Assembly (NCBI RefSeq): GCF_025370775.1
Contig: NZ_JAMXEX010000002.1
Span: 496,001 to 560,000, forward strand
Length of the DNA: 64,000 bases
Source of the DNA: Ancylothrix sp. D3o
GTDB taxonomy: Bacteria > Cyanobacteriota > Cyanobacteriia > Cyanobacteriales > Oscillatoriaceae
Reading direction: 5' to 3'
Below are positions 5,912-49,150 of this stretch, in pieces (within the stretch, counting starts at the first letter, position 1; each line of letters begins with the position of its first letter). Below the pieces are notes generated by a model that worked only from the letters and a program-made list of their open reading frames with translations, did not search any database and was not told the origin of the DNA. The position numbers and the translations under genes are program-made.

Positions 5912-7759
5912 ATGCTTTATTGTTTAAATCCAAGTTGCCAAAAACCAGAAAATACTAGCAGTGCAAAAGTTTGTAAAAGCTGTGGAAGTTCGCTTTTACT
6001 TAGAGGAAGATATAGCATAATTCGTCCGTTGAGTCAAGGCGGTTTTGCTAAGACTTTTTTGGCGCAAGATGAAGACCGGCGTAGGGCAATTTGTGTAGTA
6101 AAACAGTTTGCTCCTTCGCTGTTTATACCGGCTGCTTATCAAAAGGCTGTGCAATTATTTAATGAGGAAGCAGAAAAGCTTATACATTTGGAAGATCACC
6201 CGCAAATTCCTACACTTTATGCTTATTTTCAAGAAGGTAATTGTTTATATTTAGTGCAGCAATTCATTAAGGGTGAAACTTTGATGGAGTTGGCACAAAA
6301 GCAAACTTTTAATGAAGTGCAAATAAGGGAATTATTGGGTGATGTTTTGCCGTTGTTGCAGTTTATCCATGAGCGAAAGGTAATTCACAGGGATATTAAG
6401 CCTGATAATATTATTCAGCGGGAAAATCGGCAATTTTTACCTGTTTTTGGTAGGGGAAATGGGGGGGAATATGTGTTAATTGATTTTGGGGTAGCGAAAC
6501 AGTGGACGGGGAATTTATTAAGCCGGCAAGGTACAATGACCGGCACGCCTGGTTATGCACCAATTGAGCAAATGCGAGGTATAGCTTATCCTGCGAGTGA
6601 TTTGTATAGTTTGGCTGTGACTTGTATTCGGTTAATGACGGGGATTTTTCCAAAAGATGATGGTTCAGATGAGCTTTATGATAACTTAACTGGCAATTGG
6701 TTATGGCGAGAAAAGTTGCCCGAAGGAATAGAGTTTTCGCCGCAACTTGGGGCAATTTTAGATAATTTGTTGTCTGATTATGTGAAGGAAAGATATCAGT
6801 CAGCCGGGGAAGTTTTGCAAGTTTTGCAAACGAAAGTAGCCAAAAATGTCGCGGTAGCACAAAGTAGCAAAAAGGCAATCAATCAGCCAAAAGCCAAGGC
6901 GATAGAAACGGCAGAGAAAAAAGAGCCGGTGAACCAAGTTTCGGAATTTGAAGTAATTAGGTTAGATGCGCGGGGGAAAGAAATTAACCGGCAACGCAAA
7001 ATCGCAGAAAGCTTTGTGGAAAAATTGCCAGGTGGAGTCAGTTTAGAAATGGTTTCTATTCCGGGGGGTATTTTTTTGATGGGTTCGCCAAGAGGCAAAT
7101 ATTTAACGCGGGAATATCCGCAGCATTCGGTGCAAATTAAGCCGTTTTTTATGGGGAAATTTACCGTGACTCAGGCGCAATGGAAGGCAGTTGCAAGTTT
7201 GCCGAAAGTGAGTAGAGTTTTGGAAAAAGAACCGGCAAAATTTAAGGGTAAAAATAGGCCGGTGGAGTGTGTTTCATGGGAAGATGCTATCGAGTTTTGT
7301 GCCCGACTTTCGCGGCTGACTGGCAAAAGTTACCGGCTTCCTTCAGAGGCGGAATGGGAATATGCTTGTCGGGGGGGAATGATGACGGATTTTTGTTTTG
7401 GGGAAACGATGATTCCGCAGTTAGCTAATTTTGATGCGGGGGTGTCGGGGGGATGGTTTGGTTGGAAAAAACAGGAAATTCAAGAAACAACTGATGTGGG
7501 TAGTTTTGGGTTTGCTAATGATTTTGGCTTGTATGATATGCACGGGAATGTCTGGGAATGGTGCGCTGATTTTTGGCATGATAATTATCAGGAAGCACCT
7601 ACTGATGGTAGAGTTTGGAAAATAGGCGGAGATGATAAATTTCGGGTGCAGCGTGGGGGTTCTTGGTGTAGTAATTTGTTGATGTGCCGGTGTGCTTATC
7701 GGGATAGAGATTTGGTGGAGAAAAAAGAGGATAATTTGGGGTTTAGGGTGGTTTGTTAA
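5912..7759 (+). CDS. Ser/Thr protein kinase with zinc ribbon and C-terminal FGE-sulfatase domain
   Basis: A 615-residue multidomain protein. Residues 4-24 form a zinc ribbon (C4, C9, C21, C24). Residues 34-300 are a Hanks-type kinase with Gly loop SQGGFAKTF, Lys64, catalytic HRDIKPDN (Asp161) and DFG (Asp191), so it should be active. Residues from about 370 to the end are an FGE-sulfatase (SUMF1-type, C-type-lectin fold) domain: [45 protein letters not shown] and RGGSW near the end. Kinase-FGE fusions are known in cyanobacteria; the FGE part is often a binding module and not a true formylglycine enzyme. The next gene encodes a paralogous FGE domain without a kinase. Confidence 0.9.
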   Translation: MLYCLNPSCQKPENTSSAKVCKSCGSSLLLRGRYSIIRPLSQGGFAKTFLAQDEDRRRAICVVKQFAPSLFIPAAYQKAVQLFNEEAEKLIHLEDHPQIPTLYAYFQEGNCLYLVQQFIKGETLMELAQKQTFNEVQIRELLGDVLPLLQFIHERKVIHRDIKPDNIIQRENRQFLPVFGRGNGGEYVLIDFGVAKQWTGNLLSRQGTMTGTPGYAPIEQMRGIAYPASDLYSLAVTCIRLMTGIFPKDDGSDELYDNLTGNWLWREKLPEGIEFSPQLGAILDNLLSDYVKERYQSAGEVLQVLQTKVAKNVAVAQSSKKAINQPKAKAIETAEKKEPVNQVSEFEVIRLDARGKEINRQRKIAESFVEKLPGGVSLEMVSIPGGIFLMGSPRGKYLTREYPQHSVQIKPFFMGKFTVTQAQWKAVASLPKVSRVLEKEPAKFKGKNRPVECVSWEDAIEFCARLSRLTGKSYRLPSEAEWEYACRGGMMTDFCFGETMIPQLANFDAGVSGGWFGWKKQEIQETTDVGSFGFANDFGLYDMHGNVWEWCADFWHDNYQEAPTDGRVWKIGGDDKFRVQRGGSWCSNLLMCRCAYRDRDLVEKKEDNLGFRVVC

Positions 7760-7855: not shown

Positions 7856-8695
7856 ATGCAGTTAAAATCGTTTGACTTTGAAGTAGTGACTGTGGATGCT
7901 GAGGGGAAAGAAATTAAGCGCCAACGCCAACAAGCCGAATATTTCACAGAAGATTTAGGCGCTGGGATAATACTAGATATGGTATCAATTCCAGGGGGTA
8001 CATTTAACATGGGTTCCCCCACTTCAGAAGCTGACAGAAGCAACAATGAAAGTCCGCAACATTCGGTAACAGTCAAGCCTTTTTATCTGGGGAAATATGC
8101 CGTCACTCAGGCACAATGGAAAGCAGTTGCAAGCTTAGCCAAAGTTAAACAAGACTTAGACCCAGATCCATCTCTTTTTAAAGGTACAAATAGGCCGGTT
8201 TCGCAAGTAAGCTGGGAGGCTGCTATCGAATTTTGTGCCAGACTTAGCAAAAAAACCGGCAAAAATTATCGCTTACCGAGTGAGGCAGAATGGGAATATG
8301 CTTGTCGTGCAGGAACATCCACACCCTTTCATTTTGGCGAAACAATAACCCCAGATTTAGTTAACTATAATGGCAAGTATCCCTACGCCTCTGCACCAGA
8401 AGGAAAAGATAGTGAACAAACAACAGATGTAGGCAGTTTTCCACCCAATGCCTTTGGTTTATACGATATGCACGGCAATGTTTGGGAATGGTGTCAGGAT
8501 GTTTGGCATGAAAATTATAATGGTGCGCCTGTGGATGGTAGCGCTTGGGAAATTGGAGGTGATTCTCAATACCGGGTACGGCGTGGAGGTTCTTGGTACT
8601 ACTATGGGAGGCTTTGCCGTTGCGCTTATCGTGACTGGCTTCAGCCTGCCTACTGGTGGAGGTTCAGCAGTTTTCGCGTTGCTGTTTCCCCTTGA
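7856..8695 (+). CDS. FGE-sulfatase (SUMF1-type) domain protein, candidate DGR target
   Basis: A 279-residue protein made of one FGE-sulfatase domain. I chose ATG 7856 because AAGGA lies 8 bases upstream; the frame stays open back to a TTG at 7763, but that extension is the hairpin repeat. Landmarks: [53 protein letters not shown] and RRGGSW. It resembles the FGE domain of the preceding kinase throughout, except after RGGSW, where it reads [16 protein letters not shown] and continues rich in Tyr, Trp and Arg. That segment has the codon pattern of a diversity-generating-retroelement variable region (separate entry). True FGE activity is doubtful; a binding role is more likely. Confidence 0.85.
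8597..8671 (+). other. candidate DGR variable region (VR) at the 3' end of the FGE gene
   Basis: After the conserved GGSW the gene has TAC TAC TAT GGG AGG CTT TGC CGT TGC, then GAC TGG CTT, and GCC TAC TGG TGG AGG TTC AGC AGT before TTTCGCGTT. At the places where related FGE domains usually have Asn, the codons are NNC or NNT with only the first two bases changed. This is what adenine-directed mutagenesis of AAC/AAT template codons gives. Adenine is about 15% here (11 of 75). Position, fold and codon pattern fit a DGR variable region. No reverse transcriptase, Avd gene or template repeat is visible in the window, so it would have to be diversified in trans or be a fossil. Confidence 0.5.
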
Positions 8696-8795
8696 CTTAG
8701 CCCTTAGCACTTTTGCTCTTTTCCCTTCTTTTCTTTTCCCTTTTGGTTGTCACCGGCAGGCGACTCGAAATTTTTTCAGCTATGTACTACCCCTT

Positions 8796-9077
8796 CTAAT
8801 AAACCTCATCATGGGAACCTAGAGTGTGAAGTAAAATCACCTCTTCCTGAGAATCGTCATCCGGCACAAATTCAAATAGAATGCGATTGCTATAATCAAT
8901 AGAACAAGACCAAACGCCCGATAAATCTCCTTTCAGCTTATGAGTTTTCAAGCTAGGATGAAAGGCATCTGCTGTCAATTGTTGCAAAGTTTCTTCAACA
9001 GCCGTGCGTAGCTGTGGATTTTGACGAGACACGCGCTTAAAATCTCTCACAAACCTAGAACTCCAAAGCAACCGCAT
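8796..9077 (-). CDS. RelE/ParE-family toxin (YafQ-like mRNA interferase)
   Basis: A 93-residue basic protein with the RelE/ParE fold signature: an N-terminal WSSRFVRDFKRV helix, the middle HKLKGDLSGVWSCSIDYSNRILFEF strand pair, and a C-terminal ILLHTLGSHDEVY. Conserved His and Arg residues typical of RelE-type mRNA interferases are present. Its ATG overlaps the antitoxin stop as TAATG (9075-9079), so the two are translationally coupled. It is a type II toxin predicted to cut mRNA at the ribosome when free of antitoxin. Confidence 0.85.
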   Translation of the reverse strand: MRLLWSSRFVRDFKRVSRQNPQLRTAVEETLQQLTADAFHPSLKTHKLKGDLSGVWSCSIDYSNRILFEFVPDDDSQEEVILLHTLGSHDEVY

Positions 9078-44109: not shown

Positions 44110-44639
44110 TAACGGTTTCCTCCCAATGATATGTAAACTCGGCTTTTTAGGCCGGTTGCTGGGTTGGTCTTTGGCTGTGCTTATAAAGTAAGTGGCTTTT
44201 GGGCCGCTTCTTCTGCACTGGCTTTAGATGTCCCTTGTGTATTTTAAGGGTATCTGTGCCGCTTTCAGACTTTTAACGCCAGTTAGTTTTTGCAAATACG
44301 GATATTTTGCAGCATGAGGTTTGCTTTCTGACAAGCGCTTAATATTTTTTAATATTTTTTTCATACGGGGCCGGAGATGGGCCAAAACAGAGGGGCCGGT
44401 TTTAAGGGTGGGATTTTTAGCTAAGGAGAGGGAATACTTTATTTATAAGATACTTTGAGTGAGAAGCACTACGCATATATAACCCTCCTCCATAGGGTTG
44501 GCCTCATCCTTTTGGGTGAGAGGGGGGGGTGATTGAAGCATCTACCTTTGGATGAGCATACCGGGGGAAGGGGGTAAGGGGTGACACCCCTTATCGTTAG
44601 AAATGTAAGGACAAACAAGTTCACCCAAGGAACACCAAA
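44110..44639. promoter_or_regulatory. divergent regulatory region, apcA / peptidoglycan-binding array
   Basis: A 530-base region between divergent genes. The apcA leader probably occupies 44110-44400. On the other side are palindromes: AACCCT-cctccat-AGGGTT (44481-44499), CTCATCC-TTTT-GGGTGAG (44504-44521) and AAGGGGTGACACCCCTT (around 44577-44593), within a G-rich tract (gggggaagggggtaagggg). I cannot place promoter boxes with confidence. Confidence 0.5.
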
Positions 44640-45143
44640 ATGCAATCCACCAACAACCAATCAATTCAATCTCAAGCATTTGCTACTCAATTAAATAAGC
44701 CGGTTCTCCAGTTAGGTTCTAAAGGTAATGAAGTTAAAGAGTTGCAAAAGTTGCTAATTCACTGGAATTATCTTCCCTACGGTTTCTCGATTGATGGTTA
44801 TTTCTCTACCACTGTTCAAGATGCTGTTACAGCTTTTCAATACCGAGTATTTTTGAAAATGGATGGCATTGTTGGCAAGAATACCTGGCAGGCATTGTAC
44901 ACCGGCGCCCCTGTGAATATGCCAATGTTGCAACGTGGTTCTCAAGGGGAAGCAGTCAAAACTTTGCAACGCGCTTTAGCCGATTCTAATTCTTATTATG
45001 GCGCAAATGATGGAAATTTTGGGCCGATTACTGAGGCGGCTGTTCGCACTTTCCAAAAAAATGCCGGTTTAGTTGTTGACGGAATTGTGGGCAATAAAAC
45101 CTGGTATGCGTTGAGCAAAATTTACGCTCCTGTGGGCTGTTAA
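44640..45143 (+). CDS. tandem peptidoglycan-binding domain protein, copy 1
   Basis: A 167-residue protein with two PG_binding_1 domains. Domain 1 (about 22-84) reads VLQLGSKGNEVKELQKLL... FQ.. DGIVGKNTWQALYTG; domain 2 (about 95-160) reads LQRGSQGEAVKTLQRAL... VVDGIVGNKTWYALS. The N-terminus MQSTNNQSIQSQAFATQL is polar, with no signal peptide, and the protein ends in Cys (APVGC). Such domains bind cell-wall glycans or peptides, yet no export signal is seen. The start is the ATG preceded by CAAGGAACACCAAA. It is the first of four near-identical copies with an exact 594-base period. Confidence 0.88.
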   Translation: MQSTNNQSIQSQAFATQLNKPVLQLGSKGNEVKELQKLLIHWNYLPYGFSIDGYFSTTVQDAVTAFQYRVFLKMDGIVGKNTWQALYTGAPVNMPMLQRGSQGEAVKTLQRALADSNSYYGANDGNFGPITEAAVRTFQKNAGLVVDGIVGNKTWYALSKIYAPVGC

Positions 45144-45167
45144 TTGCGAGTTTTACTCTGGTTGGAA

Positions 45168-45189
45168 TGAATGCCCTGTTGGGCATTCA
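45168..45189 (+). terminator. intergenic hairpin 1 of the PG-binding array
   Basis: TGAATGCCC-TGTT-GGGCATTCA is a perfect 9-bp stem 25 bases after copy 1. There is no T tract, so it may be an mRNA processing or stabilising element instead of a terminator. Confidence 0.6.
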
Positions 45190-45233
45190 ACACTCTCTCA
45201 AATATCAACTTTATTAACTCAAGGAACACCAAA

Positions 45234-45737
45234 ATGCAATCCACCAACAACCAATCAATTCAATCTCAAGCATTTGCTACTCAATTAAATAAGCCGGTTC
45301 TCCAGTTAGGTTCTAAAGGTAATGAAGTTAAAGAGTTGCAAAAGTTGCTAATTCACTGGAATTACCTACCCAACGGTTTCTCCATTGATGGTTATTTCTC
45401 TACCACTGTTCACGATGCTGTTACAGCTTTTCAATACCGAGTATTTTTGAAAATGGATGGCATTGTTGGCAAGAATACCTGGCAGGCATTGTACACCGGC
45501 GCCCCTGTGAATATGCCAATGTTGCAACGTGGTTCTCAAGGGGAAGCAGTCAAAACTTTGCAACGCGCTTTAGCCGATTCTAATTCTTATTATGGCGCAA
45601 ATGATGGAAATTTTGGCCCGATTACTGAGGCGGCTGTTCGCACTTTCCAAAAAAATGCCGGTTTAGTTGTTGACGGAATTGTGGGCAATAAAACCTGGTA
45701 TGCGTTGAGCAAAATTTACGCTCCTGTGGGCTGTTAA
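45234..45737 (+). CDS. tandem peptidoglycan-binding domain protein, copy 2
   Basis: 167 residues from ATG 45234. The frame is open back to 45171, but that extension is the conserved spacer, and the leader CAAGGAACACCAAA fixes the start at the same place as in copy 1. It differs from copy 1 by Tyr to Asn in LPNGFSI and Gln to His in TVHDAVTAF. Same two PG_binding_1 domains and the same C-terminal APVGC. Confidence 0.88.
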   Translation: MQSTNNQSIQSQAFATQLNKPVLQLGSKGNEVKELQKLLIHWNYLPNGFSIDGYFSTTVHDAVTAFQYRVFLKMDGIVGKNTWQALYTGAPVNMPMLQRGSQGEAVKTLQRALADSNSYYGANDGNFGPITEAAVRTFQKNAGLVVDGIVGNKTWYALSKIYAPVGC

Positions 45738-45761
45738 TTGCGAGTTTTACTCTGGTTGGAA

Positions 45762-45783
45762 TGAATGCCCTCTTGGGCATTCA
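45762..45783 (+). terminator. intergenic hairpin 2 of the PG-binding array
   Basis: TGAATGCCC-TCTT-GGGCATTCA, the same stem as at 45168 with one loop base changed. The stem is conserved between copies while the loop varies. Confidence 0.6.
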
Positions 45784-45827
45784 ACACTCTCTCAAATATC
45801 AACTTTATTAACTCAAGGAACACCAAA

Positions 45828-46331
45828 ATGCAATCCACCAACAACCAATCAATTCAATCTCAAGAATTTGCTACTCAATTAAATAAGCCTGTTCTCCAGT
45901 TTGGTTCTAAAGGTAATGAAGTTAAAGAGTTGCAAAAGCTTTTAATTCACTGGAATTATCTTCCCTACGGTTTCTCCATTGATGGTTATTTCTCTACCAC
46001 TGTTCAAGATGCTGTTACAGCTTTTCAATATCGAGTATTTTTGAAAATGGATGGCATTGTTGGCAAGAATACCTGGCAAGCATTGTACACCGGCGCCCCT
46101 GTGAATATGCCAATGTTGCAACGTGGTTCTCAAGGGGAAGCAGTCAAAACTTTGCAACGCGCTTTAGCCGATTCTAATTCTTATTATGGCGTAAATGATG
46201 GAAATTTTGGCCCGATTACTGAGGCTGCTGTTCGCACTTTCCAAAAAAATGCCGGTTTAGTTGTTGACGGAATTGTGGGCAATAAAACCTGGTATGCGTT
46301 GAGCAAAATTTACGCACCTGTGGGCTGTTAA
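45828..46331 (+). CDS. tandem peptidoglycan-binding domain protein, copy 3
   Basis: 167 residues from ATG 45828, with the conserved leader upstream. Differences from copy 1: Ala to Glu in QSQEFAT, Leu to Phe in VLQFGSK and Ala to Val in YYGVNDG; otherwise the two domains are identical. Such near-identity in both coding and spacer sequence means the copies are young or kept alike by gene conversion. Confidence 0.88.
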   Translation: MQSTNNQSIQSQEFATQLNKPVLQFGSKGNEVKELQKLLIHWNYLPYGFSIDGYFSTTVQDAVTAFQYRVFLKMDGIVGKNTWQALYTGAPVNMPMLQRGSQGEAVKTLQRALADSNSYYGVNDGNFGPITEAAVRTFQKNAGLVVDGIVGNKTWYALSKIYAPVGC

Positions 46332-46355
46332 TTGCGAATTTTACTCTGGTTGGAA

Positions 46356-46377
46356 TGAATGCCCTGTTGGGCATTCA
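46356..46377 (+). terminator. intergenic hairpin 3 of the PG-binding array
   Basis: TGAATGCCC-TGTT-GGGCATTCA, identical to the hairpin at 45168, at the corresponding place after copy 3. Confidence 0.6.
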
Positions 46378-46421
46378 ACACTCTCTCAAATATCAACTTT
46401 ATTAACTCAAGGAACACCAAA

Positions 46422-46919
46422 ATGCAATCCACCAACAACCAATCAATTCAATCTCAAGAATTTGCTGCTCAATTAAATAAGCCGGTTCTCCAGTTAGGTT
46501 CTAAAGGTAATGATGTTAAAGAGTTGCAAAAGCTTTTAATTCGCTGGAATTACCTACCCAACGGTTTCTCGATTGATGGTTCTTTCTCGAAGTATGTACA
46601 ACAGGCGGTTACAGCTTTTCAATACCGAATGTTTCTCAAATCGGATGGTATTGTGGGTTCGTTGACTTGGAAAGCATTATACACCGGCGCCCCTGTGAAT
46701 ATGCCGACTTTACAAAAAGGTTCTCAAGGCGAAGCGGTAAAAACCTTGCAACGTGCTTTACGAGATGCCGGTGTTTATTTTGGCGCAATGGACGGAATTT
46801 TTGGGGAAGTAACTGTTGCTGCGGTTCGCACAATTCAAAAAAATTCTGGTTTGGTAGCCGATGGAATTGTGGGCAATAAAACCTGGTATGCTTTGAGCAA
46901 GGTAAACGCACGAGTTTAG
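46422..46919 (+). CDS. tandem peptidoglycan-binding domain protein, copy 4 (divergent)
   Basis: 165 residues from ATG 46422. The first 55 residues follow the other copies, then it departs: SFSKYVQQAVTAFQYRMFLKSDGIVGSLTWKALYTG in domain 1 and LRDAGVYFGAMDGIFGEVTVAAVRTIQ in domain 2. The end is KVNARV instead of KIYAPVGC, so the terminal Cys is lost. It may be the older member from which the others were duplicated, or the one that escaped conversion. It is followed by a strong terminator shared with the RTX gene. Confidence 0.88.
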   Translation: MQSTNNQSIQSQEFAAQLNKPVLQLGSKGNDVKELQKLLIRWNYLPNGFSIDGSFSKYVQQAVTAFQYRMFLKSDGIVGSLTWKALYTGAPVNMPTLQKGSQGEAVKTLQRALRDAGVYFGAMDGIFGEVTVAAVRTIQKNSGLVADGIVGNKTWYALSKVNARV

Positions 46920-46984: not shown

Positions 46985-49150
46985 CTAAATTATTTGGAAA
47001 TCAGACACATCGATAAGGGAAGGTTGAACGCCGTTAAGAGTGGCAAGTAATTCGGAACCTGTGCTGATAATATTAGAGTTAATATCGGCAGTAATTATTA
47101 ATTCTTGGAAGGTTAAACCGGCACTTAAAATGATCAAGTCTTCCCCCTTTTTTAAATCGGTGATGATATCCATCTCGGCTGCTTTTTCTAATATAAAGTT
47201 GTCGTTTCCTAGTCCGCCGCTGAGGGTGTCACTGCCGAAGTCGCCATCGAGGATATCATTATCTTTTCCGCCAATCAGAATATCGTTATCTTTTCCGCAT
47301 TGAAGTGTATCGTCTCCCTCACAGCCATCTAGTATATGAAAATCGCTATTTCCAAAGAGTATATCGTTGCCTTTTCCTCCGCAAATTGTATCGTTGTTGA
47401 AGTTTCCAAGTATGGTATCATTGCCGGCATAACCTTTGACAATATCATCATCTTTACCGGCAAATATTAGATATTCTCCTTTGCCGCTATCGATAATATC
47501 GTGGCCGGTGTTGCCAATAATTAAGTCATTTTCTGTCCCGCCTATAATCGTATCATTGCCAATTTCTCCTAAGAGAATATCGTCTCCTTCACTGCCTAAA
47601 ATGACATCGTTATCTTTGCCTGCAAATACTGTATCTCTGCCTTTTCCGCCATCGATATAGTCGTTGCCGGTGTTGCTAAAAATCAAGTCGTTGTCATCTT
47701 CACCAACCAGGTTGTCGTTATCACTTTTGCCGATAATTGTGTCATTTCCAAGGCTAGAATTAATGCTTTCTCTGTTATCGGTGCCGGTGATAAAATCATC
47801 AGACAAACTACCGTTTAAACTGTTTTGTGTTGGGTTGGTAATAAAGCTGCTTGGTGTTGGGAAAATATCGCACAGGCAACTCACATCAGGATCAGCAAAA
47901 ACTTCCGATGTTGGTGTTGATGTAGAAGTGTCTGTTGGTGCCGGTGTTGGCGTAGAAGTTTCTGTGGGTGCCGGTGTTGGCGAGGGTGTGGGAGAATTTA
48001 GTAGCAAATTAAAAGAATTGCTAACACTCGCACCGGCACTATCTTTTGCTGTTACTAAAAACCTCAAAGTTTCTTGAATATTTTCTGGTGATGTGCCTCC
48101 AAAAGTAAGCGTTAGCGCATCAAAATTTAACCAAGAAGGTAAGAGAGTTCCATCACTAAGTGTTACGCTGTAGGTAAGCGGCTCGCCATCGGCATCAACA
48201 AAGATATTTTCTGGCAATTTAAAACTAAATGCTGTGCCGGCAACAATGGCGATATCGGAAATGGGGATGTTTACAGTTGGGGGAGTATTCGGAGTTTCAT
48301 TATCTGTTATGTTGACTTGCAGGTTGGGGATGGGTGTAAGGATGTTGGAGTATGCCGGATCAGCACTGTTGGTGATGCTGTGAGTGAGGATGCCGGTGTG
48401 AGGAGAGTTTTCAACTGTTGAATCGTTAATTGCTCTAACAGTAATTGTTTGAGGGTTTGTGGTGGGGAAATTTAAAGAAATTGAGTTTAAAAAGTTAACG
48501 CCATCTGTACTAATTTGAGTTTGGCTATCTGCTGATATTGTTATTTCTACTTGTCCTGTAGGGGCTGCATTTAAGGATATGTTGTAAGTATCGGTTGTTT
48601 GATTTTCTTCGTTTACATTTGTGCTGTCGGCAGTTTCGGTAATTGTAATTCCGGGTAAAATGGGAAGGGGAAAAGTTTGGCCGGTGTTAATAGTTCCGTA
48701 GCTGTTTGTTGCGGATGTCCAGCTAAAATTTGCGGAAGTGGTGCCGGTGCCTGTTAGTTGCAAAGATTGACCGAGGGGAGCGGCGTTTTGAATTACACTA
48801 ATATCGATACTTGTTAACCCAATGGCCGGCCCGTTAGCGGCAGTAAATATGCCTTCATAACTGAGAAATTGAATAACGTTGTTGTTGTTATCTACAAGTG
48901 CAATGGCATCAGGGCCGTTTTGTATGCCGTTTGTCGGATAAGAAAAAAATAGGCTGCCGAAGTTGTTTTGTTGGTTGGGAATTATGCCGGAAAGAATGCG
49001 AGTGTTATAAAAATTTCTGTTATTTCCGTTGTACAGAACGAGGCTCCAACCTGCTAGGTTTGTGTTGGCCGGCCCAGTTATTTCTATGCCTTCGTTTGCA
49101 TCGGTGCCGGTGTTGTCGTAGTGAATCTCACTGATAAATATGTTCGTCAT
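46985..49150 (-). CDS. RTX calcium-binding secreted protein with lamin-tail domain
   Basis: A 721-residue protein. The N-terminus (1-110) resembles a lamin-tail/LTD domain (FISEIHYDNTGTDANEGIEI; LAGWSLVLYNGN). Residues about 165-280 are a Calx-beta-like region, 285-385 a cadherin-like putative Ig domain (FKLPENIFVDADGEPLTYSV), and 388-420 a Pro/Thr linker. From about 440 to 670 run RTX nonapeptides (GNDTIIGKSDNDNLVGEDDN, GNDYIDGGKGRDTVFAGKDN) that bind Ca2+, many with imperfect consensus. The C-terminus lacks Cys and has the hydrophobic finish typical of type I secretion substrates. There is no Sec signal. It is likely an extracellular or surface protein. Confidence 0.88.
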   Translation of the reverse strand: MTNIFISEIHYDNTGTDANEGIEITGPANTNLAGWSLVLYNGNNRNFYNTRILSGIIPNQQNNFGSLFFSYPTNGIQNGPDAIALVDNNNNVIQFLSYEGIFTAANGPAIGLTSIDISVIQNAAPLGQSLQLTGTGTTSANFSWTSATNSYGTINTGQTFPLPILPGITITETADSTNVNEENQTTDTYNISLNAAPTGQVEITISADSQTQISTDGVNFLNSISLNFPTTNPQTITVRAINDSTVENSPHTGILTHSITNSADPAYSNILTPIPNLQVNITDNETPNTPPTVNIPISDIAIVAGTAFSFKLPENIFVDADGEPLTYSVTLSDGTLLPSWLNFDALTLTFGGTSPENIQETLRFLVTAKDSAGASVSNSFNLLLNSPTPSPTPAPTETSTPTPAPTDTSTSTPTSEVFADPDVSCLCDIFPTPSSFITNPTQNSLNGSLSDDFITGTDNRESINSSLGNDTIIGKSDNDNLVGEDDNDLIFSNTGNDYIDGGKGRDTVFAGKDNDVILGSEGDDILLGEIGNDTIIGGTENDLIIGNTGHDIIDSGKGEYLIFAGKDDDIVKGYAGNDTILGNFNNDTICGGKGNDILFGNSDFHILDGCEGDDTLQCGKDNDILIGGKDNDILDGDFGSDTLSGGLGNDNFILEKAAEMDIITDLKKGEDLIILSAGLTFQELIITADINSNIISTGSELLATLNGVQPSLIDVSDFQII

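Follow-up and report, generated by a model that had tools for sequence, protein, structure and literature searches.

We have analyzed a stretch of 64,000 nucleotides (the window in what follows) from the cyanobacterium Ancylothrix sp. D3o, whose assembly (G000) has 6.57 Mb in 142 contigs and is 95.7% complete. Close to the beginning of the window there are two neighboring genes with FGE-sulfatase domains, and the second of them ends in a stretch that resembles the variable region of a diversity-generating retroelement (DGR). The features referred to below are the following:

5912-7759, plus strand: neighboring kinase-FGE paralogue (PF00069 and PF03781), with a 3' end lacking the variable-region pattern
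7856-8695, plus strand: gene of the FGE-sulfatase / C-type-lectin fold, 279 aa, without kinase domain; candidate orphan DGR target (variable protein)
8267-8776, plus strand: block of high identity in common with a kinase-FGE gene on contig C3 (L002), containing the variable region and the 3' flank
8597-8671, plus strand: likely variable region of a DGR, made up of the 25 codons that follow RGGSW and ending 7 codons ahead of the stop
8696-8776, plus strand: non-coding 3' flank in common with the C3 copy, a pyrimidine-rich tract followed by a weak inverted repeat and a T run

The product of the gene at 7856-8695 matches Pfam PF03781 (E 4.7e-59), with a domain that reaches to 3 residues or fewer from the C-terminus. 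Its relatives in the PDB include FGEs and variable protein 1 of Treponema denticola (2y3c, E 2.5e-18), with which it has in common the C-type-lectin fold of the FGE type. The Treponema protein is a DGR target with a DGR of its own, comes from another phylum and is distant in sequence. The window gene shows the arrangement by which DGR variable proteins are recognized, namely a lectin-fold (FGE-type) domain and, at its 3' end, the variable region. In the alignment with solved FGEs, the variable loop falls on their active-site loop region and lacks the pair of cysteines found there (alignment inspected by eye), so that an enzyme role appears unlikely from the sequence. A single-sequence AlphaFold prediction of the protein had a mean pLDDT of 37 and was left out of the argument.

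The initial annotation had described the stretch after RGGSW as poor in A and built of NNC/NNT and NGG codons, and the counts agree: A makes up 11 of the 75 nucleotides (14.7%), and the codons end in C or T in 18 cases, in G in 7 and in A in none. It was also right in seeing ordinary codons at the corresponding stretch of the neighboring kinase-FGE gene (20/75 A). However, among the 75-nt in-frame windows of the long ORFs in the 64 kb, 5.3% were comparably poor in A and 9.9% had as many pyrimidine-ending codons, and with a mere 5–10% tail we dropped this composition as evidence for a DGR. The differences between the neighboring gene and the window variable region are spread evenly over the three codon positions (16/13/16). 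The surroundings of the variable region are repeated inside the window just once, as the paralogue pair 7517-7667 / 8447-8597, and the similarity stops at the start of the variable stretch. This pair being the sole in-window repeat of the region and the sole RVT_1 match lying on another contig (C45), neither an RT nor a template repeat is present within the window, as had been claimed.

A DNA search of the assembly recovered one other copy of the variable region, located in the kinase-FGE gene on contig C3, where the variable stretch reads DRNARSCRCANRVRHQPGDRWSSSG. The two copies are 81–83% identical and the match extends beyond the stop codon. The identity was 58–63% at 8157-8276 vs 82–90% at 8277-8576, and the similarity runs out near 8776. 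This step and this end suggest that the variable cassette and its 3' flank moved as a block, and a transfer of about 510 bp between the window and C3 loci, by gene conversion or duplication, is probable.

We have found a complete homologous DGR in a genome of the same family that belongs to a sister genus (G005, locus L016). It comprises a kinase-FGE target, Avd (NF033474, E 5.7e-40), RT and template. The target domain and the 3' flank are homologous to those of the window, and the non-coding template (AAC AAC AAC CCC AGG AAT TGC CGT GCG GCT AAC CGC AAC AGG AAC ...) has AAC or AAT, and hence its adenines, at the same codons as the window variable region. Over 8696-8739 the window flank has an identity of 93% with the C3 copy and of 75% with the DGR-internal target of G005. 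The strong hairpin that follows the pyrimidine tract in G005 (z -1.5) is weak in the window (z 0.12), where an IMH has no template of its own for delimiting it. When the G005 RT was used as query against 196 genomes of the order (E <= 1e-10), about 40 relatives appeared, full-length or nearly so and with more than 60% identity. The loci of these RTs provided 22 templates that align gap-free to 8597-8671. In 25 of 31 template/variable pairs from the same loci the differences were confined to template adenines, and this validates the use of adenine columns as a reference.

The comparison of the window and C3 copies against these templates is what makes the signal in 8597-8671 real. They differ at 21 of the 75 sites, with an excess on template adenines (Fisher p=1e-5): 15 of these differences are on the 25 template-A columns, 4 on the 44 non-A columns and 2 on mixed columns. 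The columns were derived from the 22 templates of other genomes, as no template was found in the assembly itself. Shifting the adenine mask by whole codons hit at most 12 differences, vs 15 in place. All the changed codons (15) are non-synonymous and none synonymous, in contrast (p=6e-4) to the preceding 150 codons with 34 non-synonymous and 29 synonymous changes. Besides, codon positions 1 and 2 were changed at 19/50 sites (38%) vs 14/220 (6%) in the portion of the shared block immediately upstream (p=6e-8), with the third base unchanged in 13 of the 15 changed codons and both the first and the second base altered in several of them (TAC/CGC, CTT/AGT, AGG/TCG, TTC/AGC). Third positions differed less often in the variable region (2/25 vs 24/110 upstream), yet at p=0.16 this deficit is not significant, and we made no use of the idea that the template had homogenised silent sites. 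The pattern is the fingerprint of a DGR, explained by random incorporation at template codons AAC, AAT and AGG. The in-genome paralogue on C3 goes against the contrary expectation that homologues would show the same residues without A-biased substitutions.

A cluster of replacements could in principle arise with no DGR at all, if a binding loop had diverged between two FGE paralogues under positive selection or in the ordinary way. Fast evolution is plausible in a loop that corresponds to the active-site loop region of solved FGEs, and the assembly contains no detectable DGR RT. We consider this explanation highly improbable, given that the third base is kept while first and second bases change together, and that the changes follow template-A columns known solely from the DGRs of other genomes. 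Moreover, a comparable FGE gene in three Janthinobacterium genomes shows nearly only silent changes.

The initial annotation proposed to search the whole genome for a DGR-clade RT and for a template repeat, and both searches of G000 were negative. The query that retrieved about 40 RTs in other genomes of the order had no match here at E <= 1e-10. The match on C45, which is the sole RT in G000, is partial, and its best family is that of group II intron RTs/maturases, so it was ruled out as a DGR RT. No Avd was matched at E <= 1 in G000 (a search with no positive control of its own). As for the template, blastn and two degenerate patterns matched in G000 just the two coding copies or nothing, while one of the patterns, as a positive control, recovered the templates of G005 and of a second genome with a DGR RT (G006) without mismatch. 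A search of plasmids retrieved cyanobacterial FGE genes with partial matches alone, none covering 80% of the query. The missing RT does not prove a loss, because the assembly is 95.7% complete and divided in 142 contigs.

This same incompleteness leaves some room for an active remote target, with RT and template present in the organism, missing from the draft (in a gap or on an unbinned plasmid) and still diversifying the gene in trans. Cyanobacteria commonly have remote targets, some of their plasmids are known to carry DGRs (PMC7517822), and the 3' flank has been kept. Nevertheless, RT, Avd and template all went undetected in G000, and the downstream hairpin is weak compared with that of G005. 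Furthermore, 6 of the 21 differences are outside clear adenine columns, among them those in codon 4 (GGG/GCC) and the one by which the window has Ser (AGT vs GGT) instead of the Gly of GFR, a residue that does not vary in the templates. Such off-adenine differences are absent from the 25 of 31 intact-locus template/variable pairs mentioned above and from 6 of the 8 variable-region pairs of intact DGR loci. A continuing activity thus looks rather unlikely. Since most intact DGR copies lack them, the off-adenine differences suggest a former diversification followed by ordinary drift, although two different templates, instead of decay, could be another cause.

That a remote target can stay fixed is indicated by G005 and G006, which have in common such a target (YVYPRNCRAAFRDWVGPDFRIGNIG) with 2 differences in 75 nt, both at third positions, despite the presence of a DGR RT in both genomes. 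The G006 copy near C3:4764728, by contrast, has 18 differences from the DGR-internal target of G005, and 12 of these are on template-A columns. The comparison controls for age only in part, since the remote pair is also closer in its flanks (97% vs 89% for the other pair). The window gene and this remote target both have Y at codons 1 and 3 and RDW, which we considered as a sign of orthology and rejected, the positions being too few.

We regard it as likely that 8597-8671 is an orphan remote variable region of a DGR, probably inactive now. The initial annotation had spoken of a remote DGR target, or something that was one; the past tense is well supported by the template-A and codon-position biases and by the DGR of G005, while the present tense fits poorly with an RT, an Avd and a template that were not found. 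In the history that we propose, the error-prone RT of an ancestral DGR would have copied a template repeat with codons of the AAC/AAT/AGG type, inserting random bases at the template adenines during copying. The mutated cDNA would then have taken the place of the 3' end in two genes, the one in the window and a kinase-FGE gene at another locus. The RT, Avd and the template may have been lost later, or may be located in the few percent that is unassembled, and we infer loss instead of an assembly gap. Both regions would now evolve by ordinary mutation, and the residues fixed in this way would probably form the putative ligand-binding surface of a lectin-fold signaling protein.

Much of this has precedents. 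The DGR targets of cyanobacteria, remote variable proteins included, are known to include proteins of CLec alone and of kinase and CLec (PMC7517822), and the two genes described here resemble them in fold, in architecture (lectin-fold alone in the window, kinase-lectin on C3), in the variable region at the 3' end, in the template-adenine pattern and in the dispersal of copies in a genome. They are unlike them in that RT, Avd and template were not found in the assembly. A remnant paralogue without nearby RT is known too: all3226 of Nostoc sp. PCC 7120 has remnant TR-VR homology but no RT close by (PMC7517822). In this it resembles the window gene, which has no adjacent RT either, but PCC 7120 still has two DGRs elsewhere in its genome and none was found in G000. 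Proteins of this class have been proposed to sense signals, in the case of kinase/lectin proteins (PMC7517822), or antigens, as parts of conflict systems (PMC10907252). The novelty is modest, namely a pair of targets in an assembly without detectable DGR and three genomes of the same family in a similar state. A narrow literature search turned up no paper on exactly such a target pair in a DGR-less assembly.

These three genomes (G002, G003 and G004) represent three species of one sister genus and are 99% complete. They have DGR-type 3' ends, and the same search with the G005 RT found no DGR RT in them. In the family, variable-type regions are present in G000 and G002–G006 and the DGR RT in G005 and G006, that is, the regions occur in more genomes than the RT; the window's genus contributed one genome to the comparison. 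It is distinctly unlikely that the regions of G000 and G002–G004 keep differing in the absence of a resident RT, by recombination of stored variants or through a transient mobile DGR. Genomes without DGR and with scrambled targets could reveal the fate of hypermutated binding surfaces once mutagenesis ends, and some of these surfaces may become fixed as ordinary binding proteins. Such targets are overlooked by RT-seeded surveys, and the survey in PMC7517822 chose its genomes by RT. With two genomes that have a DGR RT and four that have regions but where the RT was not found, this family makes the question testable by comparison.

Some other observations deserve mention. Some of the DGR-type 3' ends of L008 and L009 (G002, G004) and L007 (G003) lie in 885-nt FGE repeats arranged in tandem, and most of the differences among the 3' ends of these loci are on template-A columns. 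In the Janthinobacterium FGE gene (L115, L116 and L118) the 25 codons after RGGSW (LYHPRYLRSALRNGFSTVLSNDIVG) are like a DGR variable region, and the stretch codes for an identical protein in the three genomes, with nearly only silent changes. This proteobacterial gene may hold a variable region that has become frozen (domesticated). After the window target there is a YafQ/YoeB-type toxin-like gene (8796-9077, minus strand; PF15738, E 5e-8), with a small ORF upstream of it that extends to about 9319, and after the C3 target a small ORF (L002:1806-2051) looks by eye like an antitoxin or a part of an addiction module. Elsewhere in the window, 44620-46701 contains four direct repeats of 300 nt, spaced exactly 594 nt and 87–98% identical. 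Finally, the plus strand at 47225-47730 has repeats with a period of 27 nt and units like ATATCGTTATCTTTTCCGC, which by eye resemble calcium-binding GGxGxDxxx repeats on the opposite strand.
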